A stretch of 47,255 nucleotides of DNA, taken from Lachnospiraceae bacterium. Lineage in GTDB: Bacteria > Bacillota > Clostridia > Lachnospirales > Lachnospiraceae. Of this stretch, positions 4,820 through 47,255 are shown in pieces. Made by a program: the position numbers and the translations under genes. Under the pieces are notes generated by a model. That model was not told the origin of the DNA and did not search any database. It saw nothing but the letters and a program-made list of their open reading frames with translations. The DNA lies in the NCBI GenBank assembly GCA_021199655.1, contig JAJQHQ010000042.1, positions 1 through 47,255 of the forward strand, given 5' to 3'. Positions within the stretch are counted from its first letter, which is position 1. Every line of letters starts with the position of its first letter.

Positions 4820-4998
4820 TTAGCCTCCTTTCGCATTCCTGCCATTTTTCTGATACGATCAGCGGGATCAATCACAGAATCACTATATCACAGTCCCGGT
4901 GATAGGGCAAGCGTTTTTGTGATTTCATCTTATCATCTGTGATATAATATCGATCTCCGTCCGTTCCCGCAAAATTATAGTTCTATCTTACCACAATT

Positions 4999-5131
4999 GT
5001 AACTGTTCAGTACCTTCACAGTTACGAGGGAAAATCCATTTAAAATCGCTTCGCGATAGGATTTTCCCTTGCAACATTTACGTTTCATACGTACCTCGCA
5101 GCAAGTGCGAGGTACTGTCCTGAATAGTTAC
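4999..5131 (+). mobile_element. MITE copy A (IS66-like ends), 133 bp
   Basis: The element starts GTAACTGTTCAG and ends CTGAATAGTTAC, giving imperfect terminal inverted repeats. It is flanked by a perfect 8-bp duplication, CCACAATT (4991-4998 and 5132-5139). Inside are three stems: the left-end hairpin GTAACTGT/ACAGTTAC, a middle stem GGGAAAATCC/GGATTTTCCC (5028-5037, 5059-5068) with inner ATCGC-TTC-GCGAT, and a right hairpin GTACCTCGCA/TGCGAGGTAC (5091-5115) with loop GCAAG. It has no coding capacity. GTAA tips with 8-bp duplications fit the IS66 transposase family, so mobilisation in trans by an IS66-type element is inferred. Confidence 0.85.
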
Positions 5132-5191
5132 CCACAATTTTACTATGATTTTCCCGATTTCGTGGTAAAATATATGATACAAGGGACAAAA

Positions 5192-5217
5192 GGTCAGGAA
5201 TGGAACGCTCGCGTTCC
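5192..5217 (+). repeat. Short hairpin repeat sharing GGTCAGGAATGGAACGC
   Basis: The 17-mer GGTCAGGAATGGAACGC (5192-5208) overlaps a perfect GGAACGC/GCGTTCC hairpin. The same 17-mer occurs on the opposite strand at 8305-8321, again in a palindrome. It lies in the 467-bp intergenic stretch 4820-5286, which otherwise holds MITE copy A and, between 4860 and 4950, several TGTGAT/ATCACA motifs whose meaning I cannot assign. Confidence 0.5.
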
Positions 5218-5286
5218 TATTCATAGCCTTGGGGACCGCAACAATATAAAGCAGCAAAAAAGAATAAAACACAGGAGGAAGCTTCT

Positions 5287-8285: not shown

Positions 8286-8320
8286 GTCAGGAACAGAACC
8301 GTATGCGTTCCATTCCTGAC
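8286..8320. repeat. Palindrome after feoB sharing a 17-mer with 5192-5208
   Basis: Outer arms GTCAGGAA and TTCCTGAC enclose GAAC/GTTC. The right side contains the reverse complement of GGTCAGGAATGGAACGC. It sits 25 nt after the feoB stop codon on the minus strand. It may attenuate transcription between feoB and the small Cys-rich gene; no T-tract is evident. Confidence 0.5.
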
Positions 8321-8345
8321 CTTCTGTTCCCGATTGATCAGATTA

Positions 8346-16245: not shown

Positions 16246-16371
16246 GAAGAGATTTGCGCTGCTTGCAGCAGGAAATCTCGAGGGTCAACGAGCAGCTGTG
16301 CCGCGAGTGAAGAGATTTGCGCTGCTTGCAGCAGGAAATCTCGAGGCCGGATGAGCAGCTGTGCTGCGAGT
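16246..16371 (+). repeat. Two tandem 63-nt structured units in a 5' leader
   Basis: Unit 1 is 16246-16308 and unit 2 is 16309-16371. The first 37 nt are identical and the rest differs at a few positions. Each unit folds into a hairpin GAGATTT/AAATCTC with inner GCTGC/GCAGC, followed by a second stem around GCAGCTGTGC. The pair would make up almost the whole 5' untranslated leader of the downstream gene. The rest of the 358-bp gap 16041-16398 holds the two regulatory sites listed above. Confidence 0.8.
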
Positions 16372-17077: not shown

Positions 17078-17131
17078 GATAACCGCAATTATCGTAACAA
17101 TTCAGGGCGGCTGTCTCTCCTGAATCATTAC
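17078..17131 (+). repeat. htpG leader hairpins, one made of paired MITE-type ends
   Basis: ACGATAA-6-TTATCGT (17077-17096) is followed by GTAACAATTCAGG and CCTGAATCATTAC (17094-17131), which pair with each other and match the terminal repeats of the MITE family without its core. No 8-bp duplication flanks it. It lies in the untranslated leader of htpG. Confidence 0.55.
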
Positions 17132-17175
17132 CTGATTCATTATTTTAAATCAAAAAATCTAAGGAGTGGTAATTC

Positions 17176-19329
17176 ATGAGTAAGAAAACAGGAAGTCTTT
17201 CTATCAACAGTGAGAACATTTTTCCCATTATCAAAAAGTGGCTGTATTCGGATCACGACATCTTCGTGCGTGAGATGATCTCCAACGGCTGCGACGCGAT
17301 CACAAAGCTGCAGAAGCTGGAAATCATGGGCGATTACACGTTCCCGGAGGACTACAAAAAGAGGATTCAGGTAATCGTGAACCCGGAGGAGAAAACGCTG
17401 AAGTTCATCGATTCCGGTCTCGGCATGACAGCGGACGAGGTCGAGGAATACATCACACAGATCGCATTCTCCGGCGCAATGGATTTCGTAGAAAAATACA
17501 AAGATAAGACGACGAATGACGAGATCATCGGTCATTTCGGTCTCGGCTTCTATTCCGCGTTCATGGTAGCGGATGAGGTGCACATCGACACCCTTTCTTA
17601 TCAGAAGGATGCGAAATCCGTACACTGGGAGTGCGACGGCGGTACCGAATATACCATCGAAGAAGGAACCCGCACAGAAGTCGGCACGGAGATCACTCTG
17701 TTCTTAAACGAGGACTGTCTGGAATTTGCGAACGAATACCGTATGCGTGAAGTGATCGAGAAGTACTGCTCTTTCATGCCGGTACAGATCTTCCTCTCCA
17801 AGGCAAACGCCGAGCAGGAATACGAGACGATTGATGAGAGCGAGCTTCGCGAGGATGATGTGGTCGTCGAGCACATTCACGAAGATGCGAAGACTGAGGA
17901 GAAAGAAAATGAGAACGGTGAAAAAGAGACCGTTGAGGTTTCACCAGCCCGTGAGCGTGTAAAGATCAACAAGCGCCCGGTGTCCTTAAGCGATACCAAT
18001 CCGCTGTGGACCAAGCATCCGAATGACTGCACGGCGGAGGAATACAAGGATTTCTACCGCAAGGTCTTCCAGGATTACAGGGAGCCTCTGTTCTGGATCC
18101 ACCTCAATATGGACTATCCGTTTAACTTAAAAGGTATCCTCTACTTCCCGAAGATCAATACGGAGTATGATTCCATCGAGGGCACGATCAAGCTTTACAA
18201 CAACCAGGTCTTCATTGCGGATAATATTAAGGAAGTGATTCCGGAATTTCTGATGCTCTTAAAGGGCGTCATCGACTGCCCGGATCTGCCGCTGAATGTT
18301 TCCAGAAGCGCGCTGCAGAATGACGGTACTGTGAAGAAGATTTCCGATTATATCACCAAGAAGGTCGCGGATAAGCTGATCGGCATGTGCAAGACAGACC
18401 GCGAATCCTATGAAAAATACTGGGACGATATCAGCCCGTTCATCAAATACGGCTGCATTAAAGACAGTAAGTTCAGCGAGAAGATGAACGACTACATCCT
18501 TTACAAAGATATCGACGGCAAGTACCAGAAGCTGGAAGATCTTCTGAAAGCGGCCGAGGACGCAAAGGCAGCTGTAGAGAATGGCGCGGATGAGACCGTC
18601 GAAGGCGAAGTAGTCGAAGACGAAGTGGTCGAAGGGGAAACTAATGAGTCTTCTGAAAGTGAAGCAGCCGGGGAAAGTGCAGACGAAACTGTAGATGAGG
18701 CTGAAGACGATGAGGAGAAAGAGCCGGAGAAGACGACCATCTATTACGTGACAGATGAAGTACAGCAGAGCCAGTACATCAACATGTTCCGTGAGTCCGG
18801 CCTGAACGCGGTCATCTTAAAGCACAACATCGATGCGCCGTTTATCTCGCACATGGAGCAGATCAACGAGAAGGTGAAATTTGAGCGCATTGATGCGGAT
18901 GTCACGGACACCGTAAAGGAAGAAGCCGACGTGGATGAGCTTAAAGAGACTGCGGACACCCTGACAGAAGTATTCCGCAAAGCGCTCGGCAAGGAGAAGC
19001 TTGACGTCAAGGTCGAAAAGCTCAAAAACGCGAACATTTCCTCAATGATCACCCTCTCTGAAGAGAGCCGCCGGATGCAGGAAATGATGAAGATGTACAA
19101 TATGTACGGCATGGATCCGTCCATGTTCGGTGGTGAGGAAACACTGGTGCTGAACGCGAACAACAAGCTGGTACAGTACATTGCTGCGAATAAAGATTCC
19201 GACAAAGTACCGATGCTCTGCGAGCAGCTCTACGATCTGGCCATGATCGCACACAAGCCGCTGCAGCCGGAAGAGATGACGAAGTTCATCTCCAGAAGCA
19301 ATGAGATCCTGATGCTGCTGGCACAATAA
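17176..19329 (+). CDS. htpG: Molecular chaperone HtpG (bacterial Hsp90)
   Basis: A 717-aa Hsp90-type chaperone. The ATPase domain has EMISNGCDAITKL, DSGLGMTADEV and GHFGLGFYSAFMVAD. The middle domain includes LPLNVSRSALQND, and a C-terminal dimerisation domain follows. It is about 90 residues longer than E. coli HtpG. Most of the excess is an acidic low-complexity insert at about residues 461-520 (repeats of VEGEVVEDEVVEGE and D/E runs) before the TTIYYVTDEVQQSQY strand, plus a charged linker at about 234-258 between the N-terminal and middle domains. AAGGAG precedes the ATG. Expression should be HrcA-controlled through the upstream CIRCE. A strong terminator follows. Confidence 0.97.
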   Translation: MSKKTGSLSINSENIFPIIKKWLYSDHDIFVREMISNGCDAITKLQKLEIMGDYTFPEDYKKRIQVIVNPEEKTLKFIDSGLGMTADEVEEYITQIAFSGAMDFVEKYKDKTTNDEIIGHFGLGFYSAFMVADEVHIDTLSYQKDAKSVHWECDGGTEYTIEEGTRTEVGTEITLFLNEDCLEFANEYRMREVIEKYCSFMPVQIFLSKANAEQEYETIDESELREDDVVVEHIHEDAKTEEKENENGEKETVEVSPARERVKINKRPVSLSDTNPLWTKHPNDCTAEEYKDFYRKVFQDYREPLFWIHLNMDYPFNLKGILYFPKINTEYDSIEGTIKLYNNQVFIADNIKEVIPEFLMLLKGVIDCPDLPLNVSRSALQNDGTVKKISDYITKKVADKLIGMCKTDRESYEKYWDDISPFIKYGCIKDSKFSEKMNDYILYKDIDGKYQKLEDLLKAAEDAKAAVENGADETVEGEVVEDEVVEGETNESSESEAAGESADETVDEAEDDEEKEPEKTTIYYVTDEVQQSQYINMFRESGLNAVILKHNIDAPFISHMEQINEKVKFERIDADVTDTVKEEADVDELKETADTLTEVFRKALGKEKLDVKVEKLKNANISSMITLSEESRRMQEMMKMYNMYGMDPSMFGGEETLVLNANNKLVQYIAANKDSDKVPMLCEQLYDLAMIAHKPLQPEEMTKFISRSNEILMLLAQ

Positions 19330-19376
19330 TGGGATCATTGCCGGGCGCAGCAGTCCACAGGCACTGAAAAAACATG

Positions 19377-19449
19377 AAAAACCTCCGGGCGTATGCAAAG
19401 CGTAAATGATGATAGTTATTTTCCTTTGCATTCGCTGCGGAGGTTTTTT
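19377..19449. terminator. Intrinsic terminator after htpG
   Basis: AACCTCCG and CGGAGGTT form the base of a long hairpin with a second stem ATGCAAAG/CTTTGCAT. A-run and T-run (TTTTTT) flank it, so it can act on both strands, mainly for htpG. Confidence 0.85.
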
Positions 19450-19519
19450 CATAACCGCCCTTTCTGATCCGTACATGATCAGGTGCAAAATCAGGAGCTC
19501 CGGATCTGTACATCTTTTC

Positions 19520-19548
19520 TTGACAAATCCGCGGAAAACAAGTATGCT
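19520..19548 (+). promoter_or_regulatory. Predicted promoter of the TraX-like gene
   Basis: TTGACA (19520-19525) and TATGCT (19543-19548) are separated by 17 bp, about 75 bp before the start codon. The remainder of the 295-bp gap after htpG holds only the terminator. Confidence 0.6.
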
Positions 19549-19624
19549 GTTTCGGGTTTTCTGTTTCAGAAGCCACGGAACTTCATTCATAATCACAGTA
19601 AAACGAAAAGTCAGGGATTTATTT

Positions 19625-20377
19625 ATGAAGGACAGATTAAACAGATTCGGTATCTCCGGCAGCACTTTAAAGCTGATTGCGGTCATTACCATGCTGATCG
19701 ACCACACGGGCGCGACCGTACTCCGCTCCATCACACGCCTCCCGGAGGTGACAGGCAATGCGGCGCTGCGGAATACCTGGGTGCATATTTACAATCTCTC
19801 GCGCGACATCGGGCGGCTGGCGTTCCCCATCTTCTGCTTTTTGCTGGTGGAAGGCTTTCTGCACACCCGAAGTCCGCGAAAATACGCAGGACGGCTTTTT
19901 TTATTCGCACTGATCTCTGAGATCCCGTTCGACATCGCACTGAAGGGAAGCTGGTTTTATCCGGACAAGCAGAACGTCTATTTCACTCTGCTGATCGGGC
20001 TGCTGGTCATGATGGCAATCCGGTGGCTGACGGACAACGGGACACGCCGCCTGCTGCTCTGTGTTCTGCCGATTGCAGCCGGGATGCTGCTGGCCGCATG
20101 GATCGACACGGATTACAGCTACAAGGGCGTGTTTCTGATCGCTGTCCTGTATCTGATGCGCAATTCCAGACTGTACCAGTGCATCGGCGGAGCCGCGGCG
20201 ATCTCCTGGGAGCTTCCCGCGCCGATCGCGTTCATCCCCATTTATTTTTATAATGGAAAGCGCGGCATCTCGCTCAAATACTTTTTCTACTGGTTCTACC
20301 CGGTGCATCTGATGCTGCTGTATGTGGTCAATACGTGGGGTATGCCTATTCTGGAGAGGCTGCTGTTCTCAGCCTGA
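19625..20377 (+). CDS. TraX family membrane protein
   Basis: A 250-aa polytopic membrane protein of the TraX family. The signature near the N-terminus is STLKLIAVITMLIDHTGA, with the conserved Asp-His, then DIGRLAFPIFCFLLVEGFLHT (about residues 58-78) and SEIPFDIALKG. The C-terminus has FFYWFYPVHLMLLY, a motif shared with membrane acyltransferases of the AT-3 group. F-plasmid TraX acetylates pilin, but chromosomal homologues in Firmicutes are not tied to conjugation and probably modify a surface component; that is inferred. I start at 19625 since the domain begins there, although the ribosome site (AGGGA) is modest. It has its own promoter. Confidence 0.85.
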   Translation: MKDRLNRFGISGSTLKLIAVITMLIDHTGATVLRSITRLPEVTGNAALRNTWVHIYNLSRDIGRLAFPIFCFLLVEGFLHTRSPRKYAGRLFLFALISEIPFDIALKGSWFYPDKQNVYFTLLIGLLVMMAIRWLTDNGTRRLLLCVLPIAAGMLLAAWIDTDYSYKGVFLIAVLYLMRNSRLYQCIGGAAAISWELPAPIAFIPIYFYNGKRGISLKYFFYWFYPVHLMLLYVVNTWGMPILERLLFSA

Positions 20378-20485
20378 CTGCGCGTATGCACTGTTTCGGC
20401 ACGGGCTGCCTGAACCATGCGAAAGAATCCATCTGTTTCATGCTTTCATTTTATGATTTGAATAGCAAAAGGGGGCATACACAAT

Positions 20486-21721
20486 ATGAATAAGAAAGAA
20501 GTCTCCGAGCTGAGACGCCTGTTCCACCCGGACCGCACGCCGGTCACAAGGATCTGCGGCTGCTACGTGGATGCGGAGAAAACAAAAAAAGCTACGATGA
20601 AGGAAGCATTTCTCTCCCTGCCGGAGGAAGAAATGTTCAAATATTTTGATATTTTCAAAAAAACGCTCTCCGGCACGATTGGGAAAAATCTTCTGGAGAT
20701 GGAATTTCCGCTTGTGCATTCTGATGAATACCCCACGGATCAAACAGACAGCAGTCCTGCCCTGTCCGGCTCTGTCTCAACGGATTCCTCTGCCTCCGGC
20801 ACGATCCGGGACGGCGGACTGCAGGGTTTTCTGATGAAGCTGAAAGCCAGCGCTCTTAAAGATGATGCCCTGCTGGATGAGTTTTACGACAAGGTGATTG
20901 ACACTTTTCTGTATCCGGAGAATTATTACATTATATTAATTCACGGCACGTATGACATTCCCGGAAAGGGTTCCGACGGTCTGGACATGGACGACGCCTC
21001 GGAGGATGTCTATGAATTCCTGCTGTGCTCGATCTGCCCGGTGCATTTGTCCAAACCGGGACTTTGCTACCACGAGGAAACCAATACGATCAGTGAACGC
21101 ATACGCGACTGGTTTGTCGAATCGCCGGTGACCGGATTTCTGTTCCCGACTTTTACGGACCGCAACACGGATATCCACAGCCTTCTGTATTATTCGAAAA
21201 ACCCGGATGAGCTGAACGCGGATTTTGCCAGACTGCTCTTAGGATGCGAGCTGCCGCTTACGGCCGGTTCGCAGAAGGATACGTTCAATACTCTGGTCGC
21301 CGAAACCTTAAGCGATTCCTGTACATTTGAGACCGTTAAAAACATTCATTCCTCCCTGAATGAGCTTCTGGAGGAGCACAAAGACGATCCGAACCCGGTC
21401 CTGCTTGACAAGGGGGATATGAAGCGCCTGCTTGCAGACAGCGGTGCCGACGACGAGGCACTGGAGCATTTTGACGAAAGCTTTGCAGAAGCATCCGGTG
21501 ATACCCAGGCGGAGCTCTATGTAACCAATGTGGCGCATACCCGCCGGTTTGAGATCAAAACGCCGGACATTTCGATTTCCGTGAAGCCGGAATGTGCCGA
21601 CCTGGTCGAGACGCAGGTCGTCGGCGGACGGCTCTGCTTTGTCATCCCGGTGAACGATTCCGTAGAAGTCAACGGCATTCCGGTGCAGACGGGAATACAT
21701 ACAGATGCCGAAGAAGAATAA
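20486..21721 (+). CDS. DUF4317 domain-containing protein
   Basis: A 411-aa cytosolic protein that matches the DUF4317 family typical of Lachnospiraceae: the opening KKEVSELRRLFHPDRTPVTR followed by ICGCYVDAEK and EEEMFKYFDIFKKTLSG. The C-terminal portion contains the GDMKRLLADSGADDEALEHF region and an FEIKTPDISISVKPE strand segment. The family has no established function. A low-complexity Ser-rich stretch at about residues 85-110 looks like a linker. AAGGGGG lies upstream of the ATG. A solitary MITE end starts 4 nt after the stop codon. Confidence 0.88.
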   Translation: MNKKEVSELRRLFHPDRTPVTRICGCYVDAEKTKKATMKEAFLSLPEEEMFKYFDIFKKTLSGTIGKNLLEMEFPLVHSDEYPTDQTDSSPALSGSVSTDSSASGTIRDGGLQGFLMKLKASALKDDALLDEFYDKVIDTFLYPENYYIILIHGTYDIPGKGSDGLDMDDASEDVYEFLLCSICPVHLSKPGLCYHEETNTISERIRDWFVESPVTGFLFPTFTDRNTDIHSLLYYSKNPDELNADFARLLLGCELPLTAGSQKDTFNTLVAETLSDSCTFETVKNIHSSLNELLEEHKDDPNPVLLDKGDMKRLLADSGADDEALEHFDESFAEASGDTQAELYVTNVAHTRRFEIKTPDISISVKPECADLVETQVVGGRLCFVIPVNDSVEVNGIPVQTGIHTDAEEE

Positions 21722-21724
21722 CTC

Positions 21725-21751
21725 GTAACTGTGAAGGTACTGAACAGTTAC
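21725..21751. repeat. Solitary MITE-end hairpin between DUF4317 and GH3 genes
   Basis: GTAACTGT and ACAGTTAC type arms match the left-end hairpin of the full MITEs (as at 46985-47011) almost exactly, but the two-hairpin core is absent and no 8-bp duplication flanks it. It sits 4 nt after one stop codon. Confidence 0.7.
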
Positions 21752-27039: not shown

Positions 27040-27174
27040 GTAACTGTTCAGTACCTTCACAGTTACGAGGGAAAAGCCCATTTATAATCGCTGCGCGATG
27101 AGGCTTTTCCCCACATGTTAATCGTTTTCATACGGTCTTCGCAGCAGGTGCGAAGACCTGTCCTGAATAATTAT
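27040..27174 (+). mobile_element. MITE copy B (IS66-like ends), 135 bp
   Basis: The copy begins GTAACTGTTCAG and ends CTGAATAATTAT, flanked by the perfect 8-bp duplication GAACCTAC (27032-27039 and 27175-27182). The middle stem is GGGAAAAGCC/GGCTTTTCCC with inner ATCGC-TGC-GCGAT. The right hairpin is GGTCTTCGCA/TGCGAAGACC with loop GCAGG. Relative to copy A the stem bases differ but remain paired. The right duplication contains the stop codon of the DUF6142-like gene. Confidence 0.85.
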
Positions 27175-29304: not shown

Positions 29305-29436
29305 GCAGCTATTCAGTCCAACAGGCCACAGATTGCCTGCTCTGCAGACTGCAGGACCTTCGCGTGTCGTATGTCTGAGACTTGATGGTGCTCTGAATTG
29401 ATGCAAAAAGTAACTGCGAGGATACTGAACAGTTAC
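29305..29436 (+). repeat. Diverged MITE copy upstream of glgC, 132 bp
   Basis: It starts GCAGCTATTCAG and ends with the hairpin GTAACTG/CAGTTAC. Its left part, with CAGGCCACAGA, matches the reverse complement of the window-start copy. Flanking octamers differ, so it is an old insertion or an unrelated excision product. It lies in the glgC leader, 29 nt before the start. The rest of the 428-bp gap 29037-29464 is AT-rich with a TACAAT -10-like box at 29288-29293. Confidence 0.6.
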
Positions 29437-46847: not shown

Positions 46848-46876
46848 ACGTTTTTTTGCCATTCTTAAGAAAGAAT

Positions 46877-47011
46877 GTGACTATTCAGAACAGTACTTCG
46901 CACTTGCTGCGAAGTACGTATGAAAACGTATATTATATGGGGAAAAGCCTCATCGCGCAGCGATTCTAAATAGGCTTTTCCCTCGTAACTGTGAAGGTAC
47001 TGAACAGTTAC
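46877..47011 (-). mobile_element. MITE copy C (IS66-like ends), 135 bp, inverted
   Basis: This copy is reversed relative to A and B. It begins GTGACTATTCAG and ends CTGAACAGTTAC, with a perfect 8-bp duplication GAAAGAAT (46869-46876 and 47012-47019). On its own sense strand the middle stem is GGGAAAAGCC/GGCTTTTCCC and the right hairpin GTACTTCGCA/TGCGAAGTAC with loop GCAAG. Confidence 0.85.
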
Positions 47012-47046
47012 GAAAGAATGCGTTTGTGAACATCGGTCGCGCCAGT

Positions 47047-47203
47047 ACAGGTCACGTCCAGACCAAATCCATGTTAACAAACCTGTGTAAGCGTGACCTG
47101 TAGGCATCCGGCCAATGAAATCGCTTTGCGATGGAGCCGGATGCCTGTTGCCACTACGTTTTCAACCCTGACCACGCAGCAAGTGCGTGGTCGGGTTGTG
47201 AAC
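47047..47203 (+). repeat. Related two-hairpin element D with different ends
   Basis: The same architecture as the MITE core occurs with different stem sequences: ACAGGTCACG/CGTGACCTGT (47047-47056, 47092-47101), then AGGCATCCGGC/GCCGGATGCCT (47102-47112, 47136-47146) with inner ATCGC-TTT-GCGAT, then GACCACGCA/TGCGTGGTC (47170-47192) with loop GCAAG. The GTAAC tips are missing. A group II intron starts 11 nt after the last stem. Confidence 0.75.
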
Positions 47204-47255
47204 GTGCGCCCGGCGGCGCACGTTTCTAACCGGTGCAAGTCCGGAATCCGCCCGG
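47204..47255 (+). mobile_element. 5' end of a group II intron (partial)
   Basis: The sequence GTGCGCCCGGCGGCGCACG followed by CTAACCGGTGCAAGTCCGG is the characteristic start of bacterial group II introns: the GUGYG 5' end and a CCGGUGCAAGUCCGG hairpin of domain I. Only 52 nt are in the window, so the reverse transcriptase gene and catalytic domain V are not seen. Insertion directly after a GC-rich hairpin with TTGTGAAC between is the site preference of group IIC introns, so that class is favoured by inference. Confidence 0.82.

Follow-up and report, generated by a model that had tools for sequence, protein, structure and literature searches.

A candidate Lachnospiraceae superfamily of miniature mobile elements with covarying hairpins and ends resembling those of IS66-type loci

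Miniature inverted-repeat transposable elements (MITEs) of bacteria, such as RUP, NEMIS, ERIC, bcr1 and QMITE, are described in the accessible text of two accounts as short, non-coding, intergenic sequences with terminal inverted repeats, target duplications and stable folds that are moved in trans by a transposase (PMC3733652, PMC10969869). The element described here resembles them in being short and non-coding and in having inverted ends, target duplications and a stable fold, but it differs from bacterial MITEs in general in that one architecture with free sequence recurs in 63 of 334 sampled genera, in covariation that withstands control for phylogeny and in an almost complete lack of G-U pairs. 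The terms IS66, Lachnospir, Clostridi and compensatory are all absent from the available text of a 2024 review of bacterial MITEs. The nearest precedent for compensatory hairpin changes in mobile DNA, as far as the accessible text of the source goes, is that of the REPINs, hairpin-forming mobile units whose singlets are read there as defunct remnants (Bertels & Rainey, 2011; PMC3116915). Our element is likewise a hairpin-forming mobile unit, and its solitary hairpins are comparable to REPIN singlets; unlike REPINs, which on the same partial account consist of two inverted REPs and depend on a Y1 transposase (RAYT), it has three hairpins, IS66-type ends and 8-bp duplications. REPINs are not known to make a target duplication, and the 8-bp duplications place the element outside that class. 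Cyanobacterial small dispersed repeats of 21–27 nt are reportedly ‘very small mobile repeated elements’, and the 27-nt solitary hairpins considered below resemble them in size; we know of no IS66-type link for those repeats. For two members of the IS66 family, a duplication of 8 is listed in the accessible part of the source (PMC3281130). Our element shares the 8-bp duplications with that family and an end motif with a divergent group of PF03050 transposases, but unlike IS66 insertion sequences it does not code for protein, and its core did not appear beside IS ends.

Structured MITEs and hairpin-compensating REPINs are therefore already known, and a search of Rfam and of open-access papers returned no description of the superfamily itself. 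We lean, with moderate confidence, towards the view that the element is a MITE of a Lachnospiraceae-wide superfamily with IS66-type DDE ends and 8-bp duplications, the hairpins of which are kept for mobilization at the DNA level. The ends would be recognized by a divergent IS66-type DDE transposase that makes the 8-bp target duplications, and the interior holds three hairpins, a left one, a central one built in two steps and a right one. Efficient mobilization would be limited to copies with a good DNA fold, whether as a single strand or as a cruciform, with the result that the sequence would drift through paired changes in spreading lineages. After insertion a copy would enjoy little visible protection and would decay, shrinking to hairpin remnants, chiefly the 27-nt solitary left hairpin, probably by slippage between CAGTTAC at the end of the left hairpin and TAGTTAC at the right end.

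Architecture, copies and mobility of the element

The window (the whole stretch of 47,255 nt that was analysed) contains two full copies and a decayed one besides element A, together with two solitary left hairpins (Table 1). The left terminal repeat of A, GTAACTGTTCAG, is formed by the first 12 nt of its left hairpin, and the inverted right terminal repeat matches it at 11 of 12 positions. A folds into the left hairpin (or an alternative stem that closes the element by joining its ends), a long, short-tipped central hairpin and the right hairpin, with folding z-scores against shuffled sequences of −9.7 on the plus strand and −7.0 on the minus strand. In the central hairpin, the outer stem pairs AGGGAAAATCC at 5027–5037 with GGATTTTCCCT at 5059–5069, and the tip at 5045–5057 reads ATCGC-TTC-GCGAT. 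The interval given in the initial annotation, 5028–5115, spans the central and right hairpins, so that the inverted ends, the 8-bp duplication and the left hairpin fall outside it. Adjoining element A is a pair of 40-bp inverted repeats that are 80 % complementary, at 5183–5222 and 8291–8330.

Table 1. Positions of the element, its parts and its relatives within the window
Feature	Position	Strand	Basis or remark
Element A, 133 nt	4999..5131	+	Target duplication CCACAATT on both flanks; about 70 strong relatives in its own genome
Target-site duplication of A, left copy CCACAATT	4991..4998	.	Sequence reading
Target-site duplication of A, right copy CCACAATT	5132..5139	.	Sequence reading
Left hairpin of A, GTAACTGT...ACAGTTAC	4999..5025	+	234 genome places at ≤3 mismatches; reversed-pattern control 0
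Central hairpin of A	5027..5069	+	Fold and covariation
Right hairpin of A, GTACCTCGCA-GCAAG-TGCGAGGTAC	5091..5115	+	Fold and covariation
Right terminal repeat of A, CTGAATAGTTAC	5120..5131	+	Sequence; same motif in IS66-type loci
Element B, full, 135 nt	27040..27174	+	Target duplication GAACCTAC on both flanks
Element C, full, 135 nt	46877..47011	-	Target duplication ATTCTTTC on both flanks (element orientation)
Element D, decayed copy of related longer family	~47045..47207	+	Model R1, 50.9 bits at 47077-47209
Solitary left hairpin, 27 nt	21725..21751	-	Identical to the left hairpin of A; no clear duplication (2/8)
Solitary left hairpin, 27 nt, 3 mismatches, before a gene	29410..29436	-	No clear in-register duplication (4/8)

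B and C share the central stem GGGAAAAGCC and have right stems GGTCTTCGCA/TGCGAAGACC and GTACTTCGCA/TGCGAAGTAC, respectively. D, the limits of which are approximate, has lost its right end and keeps the central hairpin (stem AGGCATCCGGC/GCCGGATGCCT) and the right hairpin (GACCACGCA/TGCGTGGTC); an intact relative of D was located at L048:2503-2671 with the duplication CAAATAAT. All of the stem sequences previously reported for A, B, C and D were present, and the tip ATCGC-N3-GCGAT is constant in all four, although four copies alone carry little statistical weight. After D, the sequence from 47208 to the contig end at 47255 reads GTGCGCCCGG..., which we take to resemble the start of a group II intron placed behind a hairpin; a search of 46860–47255 against Rfam at E values up to 1 gave no match. 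Elsewhere in the window, at 16246–16371, a 63-bp unit forms two tandem repeats that are 90 % alike.

A covariance model built from 37 copies of the element's own genome found 122 places in that genome with E values no higher than 0.001, of which 70 score above 100 bits. Within the genus the element was detected in 31 of 47 genomes, three of which, besides its own, hold more than 60 matches, and in a sample of the family the model matched 71 of 397 genomes and 63 of 334 genera, which is a lower bound as at most eight candidates per genome were scored with strict filters. All 48 loci that matched an exact 23-mer came from named Lachnospiraceae or Clostridiales metagenome-assembled genomes, and the family was therefore taken to be Lachnospiraceae. 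At gathering scores the only Rfam matches in the window were two tRNAs, none on the element, and the three sub-threshold matches obtained from the loci of seven relatives at E values up to 0.5 did not overlap it. The plasmid search returned no match for the element, three element patterns had no match in viral contigs, and the phage search yielded four matching human-gut scaffolds, three of the same architecture. These three (L245, L246 and L247) are unannotated phage scaffolds with a covaried tip, ATCGG...CCGAT. A sister type in genus g103 (L398, L400, L403, L407 and L411) carries a different right module, TCTCGGGATTTTGGCAT...ATGCCAAAACACCTCGCGGG, and is represented at L403 by a 233-nt version. 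Head-to-tail tandem copies separated only by a duplication-sized spacer were seen at G000 C90:53-185 and 193-325 and at L074:2572-2852.

The element is mobile. Both flanks were located in the fetched loci of relatives for 26 of 41 elements of its own genome, and for 10 of these 26, in 13 of 47 comparisons, the relative lacked precisely the element together with one 8-bp copy; the empty sites were mostly clean single targets, some with base changes. The regions of G011, G010 and G007 orthologous to the B site hold no element but contain further indels, and hence do not form an exact empty site. Among 101 full copies of the main family, 63 have duplications identical in 8/8 bases and 25 in 7/8 (88 at 7/8 or better), and at least 7/8 bases match in 31 of 44 divergent copies, including 20 of the 29 from other genera. 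With its insertion seen through empty sites, its inverted ends and its non-coding length of 133–135 nt, the element has the properties of a MITE. Full copies occupy common sites in six cases, four shared with G011 (L016, L030, L040 and L045), one with G010 (L013) and one with G007 (L041). The last, L041:213-346, is common to G000 and G007 (L368), odd tip included, and its site is empty in the sister G011 and in G010 (L331, L351); its presence in G007 and absence from G011 and G010 imply either precise loss or lineage sorting and make it a candidate for precise excision. At another position (L193 vs L077) the genome of the window and G011 carry different subfamilies 2 bp apart, a possible hot spot or replacement.

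Solitary left hairpins and short derivatives

About 160 of the 234 genome places that match the left hairpin with at most three mismatches lie outside full copies as 27-nt solitary hairpins. These could be remnants or minimal mobile units, and we favour remnants generated by slippage. That the solitary hairpin is instead an element of minimal size that the same machinery inserts directly, with the 133-nt form a larger member of the series, seems to us rather unlikely. Several observations speak for it. At least 7/8 duplication bases flank 20 of 43 solitary hairpins examined, when 0.1 would be expected (the match is exact, 8/8, in 10 of the 43); the target preference NANNNNTC is common to these 20 and to the 88 full copies; one solitary hairpin with an exact duplication (L237) faces a single-target empty site in the sister G011 (L310); and 11 common sites comprise five at which G000 and G011 both hold a solitary hairpin and six at which both of the genomes compared hold a full copy, with no mixture of the two. 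Against direct insertion, the remaining 23 of the 43 have no clear duplication, the end of the solitary hairpin is that predicted by slippage between CAGTTAC and TAGTTAC, and derivatives of 41–47 nt with exact duplications (L404–L406; in G148 and G439, another genus) have differing internal junctions, as local deletions would give. In addition, 27 bp would be very short for a DDE transpososome.

Of the two solitary hairpins in the window, that at 29410..29436 corresponds to empty sites in G010 and G007 and to a doubled hairpin in G011. For that at 21725..21751 an origin as a remnant of a full copy present in G007 was considered and rejected, since the G007 copy has a different duplication and orientation. 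Target-primed reverse transcription with truncated copies is not favoured either, on the weak evidence that in five truncated copies (L050, L053, L073, L087 and L088) the left flank is not exactly repeated within 260 nt (best matches 6, 6, 7, 6 and 7 of 8, respectively) while 10 of 43 solitary hairpins have 8/8.

Pairing in the hairpins and where it is kept

The compensatory stem changes reported for the window copies proved to be a correct observation, as the three hairpins persist while their sequence turns over. In 37 copies from the same genome (alignment A1), two-sided changes affect 9 of 42 pairs and 98.5 % of cells pair. In 40 diverse copies (alignment A4, made with MAFFT and not fitted to the structure), two-sided changes affect 25 of 35 structure pairs and pairing holds in 90.3 % of 1,372 cells; the number of cells with two-sided changes is 176, compared with 46.5 after shuffling, and the covariation score is 0.352, compared with 0.105 for shuffled alignments and at most 0.105 when slid. 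On one of five measures, the number of further pair types, neither A4 (29 of 500 shuffles reach the value) nor A1 (500 of 500) exceeded shuffled alignments. We then have a phylogenetic null, a home-made stand-in for R-scape in which columns were simulated 60 times along a FastTree tree with the changes observed per column; of 8,646 column pairs in A4, five fell below an E value of 0.05, and all five (42-72, 58-64, 106-126, 109-123 and 110-122) belong to the 35 structure pairs. The covariation check proposed in the initial annotation was thus borne out, with 30 structure pairs below significance, five of which never vary, and with a left hairpin whose covariation is no more than suggestive (its best pair has an E value of 0.42). 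When inverted repeats were sought without an alignment, a central stem of at least eight pairs was found in 51 of 53 diverse copies, in 33 sequences that form 16 groups without a common exact 8-mer, and a right stem in 45 of the 53, in 24 sequences and 16 groups. Gene conversion between just two fixed subfamilies, which had been raised as a competing explanation of the stem differences, is inadequate given 16 central-stem groups with no 8-mer in common. Central and right stem types combine differently among copies, and the loop and spacer motifs GCAGYAARTGC and TTACGG are kept in most diverse copies. The covariation under the phylogenetic null supports the view that pairing is maintained; the original argument that neutral decay would break pairs overlooks copying between arms by template switching.

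It had also been suggested that the element functions as RNA or as single-stranded DNA. We consider it unlikely that the hairpins act as RNA, whether as a transcribed terminator, a stabilizer or a small RNA at host loci, with selection on RNA folding, even though A folds strongly and bacterial MITEs are reported, in the accessible text of two sources, to be transcribed and folded (PMC3733652, PMC10969869). Of the features of a structured RNA, covariation beyond phylogeny is present and tolerance of G-U is not seen: G-U makes up 13 of 1,239 standard pairs in A4 (1.0 %), compared with 31 of 247 (12.6 %) in 11 tRNAs of the same loci, a small yardstick obtained with a tRNA finder that itself admits G-U. 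Central stems have 547 Watson–Crick cells of 553, with two G-U, one A-C and three others, and in right stems 31 other mismatches were counted, many of which come from a single type whose stem is mismatched internally. On the plus strand, G-U (7) and A-C (10) are about equally rare in the diverse set, giving no clear sign of one RNA strand, and in the main family A-C exceeds G-U (17 vs 6, P=0.03), where A-C would correspond to G-U on the opposite strand. The rarity of G-U relative to tRNAs, and the fact that it is no commoner than its mirror A-C, speak against an RNA role, and no Rfam family matches the element. Genomic context points both ways. In 23 of 27 tandem contexts the solitary hairpins run opposite to both flanking genes (38 loci, rough ORF calls), in keeping with an RNA role, but 29 full copies with exact coordinates (L098–L126) are found in mixed contexts, 10 divergent, nine tandem, four convergent, five inside called ORFs and one undecided; this count leaves out L002–L008, in which an offset element start could cause the strand to be misread and three loci of which repeat later ones. 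In G148, a complete genome, 33 or 32 of 47 elements are oriented with the replichores when the terminus is set at 1.68 or 1.795 Mb (P=0.008 and 0.019), and 35 of 47 when it is placed at 1.57 Mb, a value picked by eye from the list of elements, whereas the skew flips between 1.66 and 1.80 Mb; the 47 are those left of 63 matches after partner ends or ambiguous ends were dropped. As genes are co-oriented too, replication and gene direction are inseparable as causes of this bias.

Parsimony was applied to a tree of 101 main-family copies, with stem changes split between terminal and internal branches. Single changes from Watson–Crick pairs on terminal branches led to G-U in 17 cases, to A-C in 24 and to other mismatches in 15, alongside nine compensated doubles; the corresponding numbers on internal branches were 2, 8 and 6, alongside 14 compensated doubles and 11 single repairs. 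Private changes thus break pairs freely, with no visible filter for pairing, and constraint seems to act on the spreading lineages, which are compensated, and not on each resident copy. Consistent with this, stems are mismatched in 121 of 3,424 cells, near the 35 of 744 for target duplications, the neutral yardstick, in copies matching at 6/8 or better (74 of 808 over all 101 copies, partly from misassigned duplications). Against this reading, stem breakage did not rise with duplication decay in an ageing test (rho 0.11, P=0.29) and was if anything lower in copies with decayed duplications (32 of 1,287 vs 89 of 2,137). Two further observations, which would accord with an RNA role, point the same way. 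Paired columns change less than unpaired ones, with 69 changes in 52 columns compared with 122 in 41 on terminal branches and likewise fewer on internal branches, which together with the nine terminal compensated doubles hints at constraint or copying in resident copies. Furthermore, six pairs of orthologous full copies differ at 9 of 806 positions compared with 71 of 720 in the near flanks, partly through ascertainment, as for four of the six the copy in the relative had been located by a high score or an exact match; the two pairs reached from the flanks alone (L030/L343 and L041/L368) give 6 of 268 compared with 16 of 240, and orthologous solitary hairpins show about the divergence of their flanks (2 of 135 vs 15 of 589, P=0.75). 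From the near-absence of G-U, together with private changes unfiltered for pairing, we infer a need for folding at the DNA level, in mobility rather than in a host-cell job performed as RNA at each locus, which would narrow the function originally suggested towards its DNA alternative.

Pairing might also be kept by mechanism, through template switching in imperfect palindromes or conversion from other copies that recopies one arm. The near-perfect Watson–Crick arms, the different combinations of central and right stem types, the nine compensated doubles on terminal branches and the mere two G-U steps on internal branches would all fit such a process. We nevertheless judge it improbable as the explanation, since the persistence of 56 single changes off Watson–Crick on terminal branches, 17 of them to G-U, indicates that correction of resident copies is not efficient, and arm copying leaves the kept motifs GCAGYAARTGC and TTACGG unexplained. 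A combination in which an IS66-type DDE system would act on folded DNA, with the hairpins as substrate, the 27-bp left hairpin as smallest insertable unit and the arms recopied at each jump, so as to give near-perfect Watson–Crick stems with free sequence, appears quite improbable.

A divergent IS66-type transposase as candidate helper

Mobilization at the DNA level, the reading that we prefer, would call for a transposase acting in trans. A candidate came from a scan of all fetched loci in which the end motif had to be accompanied by matching 8-bp duplications. The element at L183:1218-3484 (G009) is 2,267 bp long, has the ends GTTACTATTCAC and the duplication ACTATTTT, and codes for a 102-aa protein and a 520-aa IS66-family transposase (PF03050, 1.9e-10) that scores 140 bits against the NCBIfam IS66 model, under the cutoff of 180. 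First scans of ordinary IS66 elements of the genus gave no matching ends, which were found only with a looser motif plus the duplication; the motif occurs in only three of 29 IS66 loci of the genus (L169, L181 and L183), and the element ends, GTWWCWRTTCA, differ from the apparent ends GTAAGTG and GTAAACG of two others (L160 and L163), for which no duplication gives confirmation. The looser scan returned three pairs above 260 bp, namely L183, the tandem pair L074 and window positions 17094–21751. This last pair, with a 7/8 duplication, was taken as a chance match as it encloses genes for Hsp90, a TraX-like protein and a DUF4317 protein but none for a transposase. Another left/right pair, 2.75 kb long and seen in G148 and G439, was likewise rejected as an autonomous element, for it holds a uracil-DNA glycosylase gene and a MurJ-like gene between two separate elements.

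A family-wide search with the L183 transposase yielded 24 loci, spread over 19 of the 397 genomes; in 17 of these loci the identity to it is only 23–32 %. The motif GTWWCWRTTCA is present somewhere in 20 of these 24 loci, with 26 matches compared with 1.2 expected under equal base use, and the element and IS66-type loci thus have an end motif in common. Inward pairs 1.8–2.4 kb apart occur in six of the 20 motif-bearing loci; the complete-looking IS66-type elements, L183, L453 (motif ends, duplication GCCGGAAT) and L450 (near-variant ends GTTACCATTCAC, duplication CAAAGCCC), are 2.3–2.4 kb long with exact 8-bp duplications, and the remaining inward pairs lack a matching duplication or, in the case of L455, extend beyond the contig end. 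The end types GTTACTGTTCAC, GTAACAGTTCAG and GTATCTGTTCAG recur in both MITE and IS66-type elements. Judged from these ends and duplications, the divergent transposase group is likely to be the helper of the element, and we infer that an IS66-type transposase of this kind would act on it. In the genome of the window the sole IS66 fragment shares 56 % identity over 109 aa with the C-terminus of the L183 transposase and has the same end GTTACTATTCAC behind it; no complete transposase of the L183 kind was found there, in an assembly of 110 contigs from which it could have been lost. With no intact helper in that genome, IS66-type membership is claimed by ends and duplication. Across the family, co-occurrence of a transposase relative (19 of 397 genomes) and the element (71 of 397) was no more than chance (five genomes, P=0.24). 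The 75 nt inside the IS66-type ends contain no three-hairpin core, which argues that the core is not a simple deletion product of such elements.

Many bacterial MITEs are said to fold, yet selection on folding, and whether it acts on RNA or DNA, has rarely been testable. The presence here of many copies, of many sequence families with one architecture, of exact empty sites and of a helper candidate with matching ends makes the question directly testable, and the solitary 27-bp hairpins raise the further question of the minimal size of a transposable unit.
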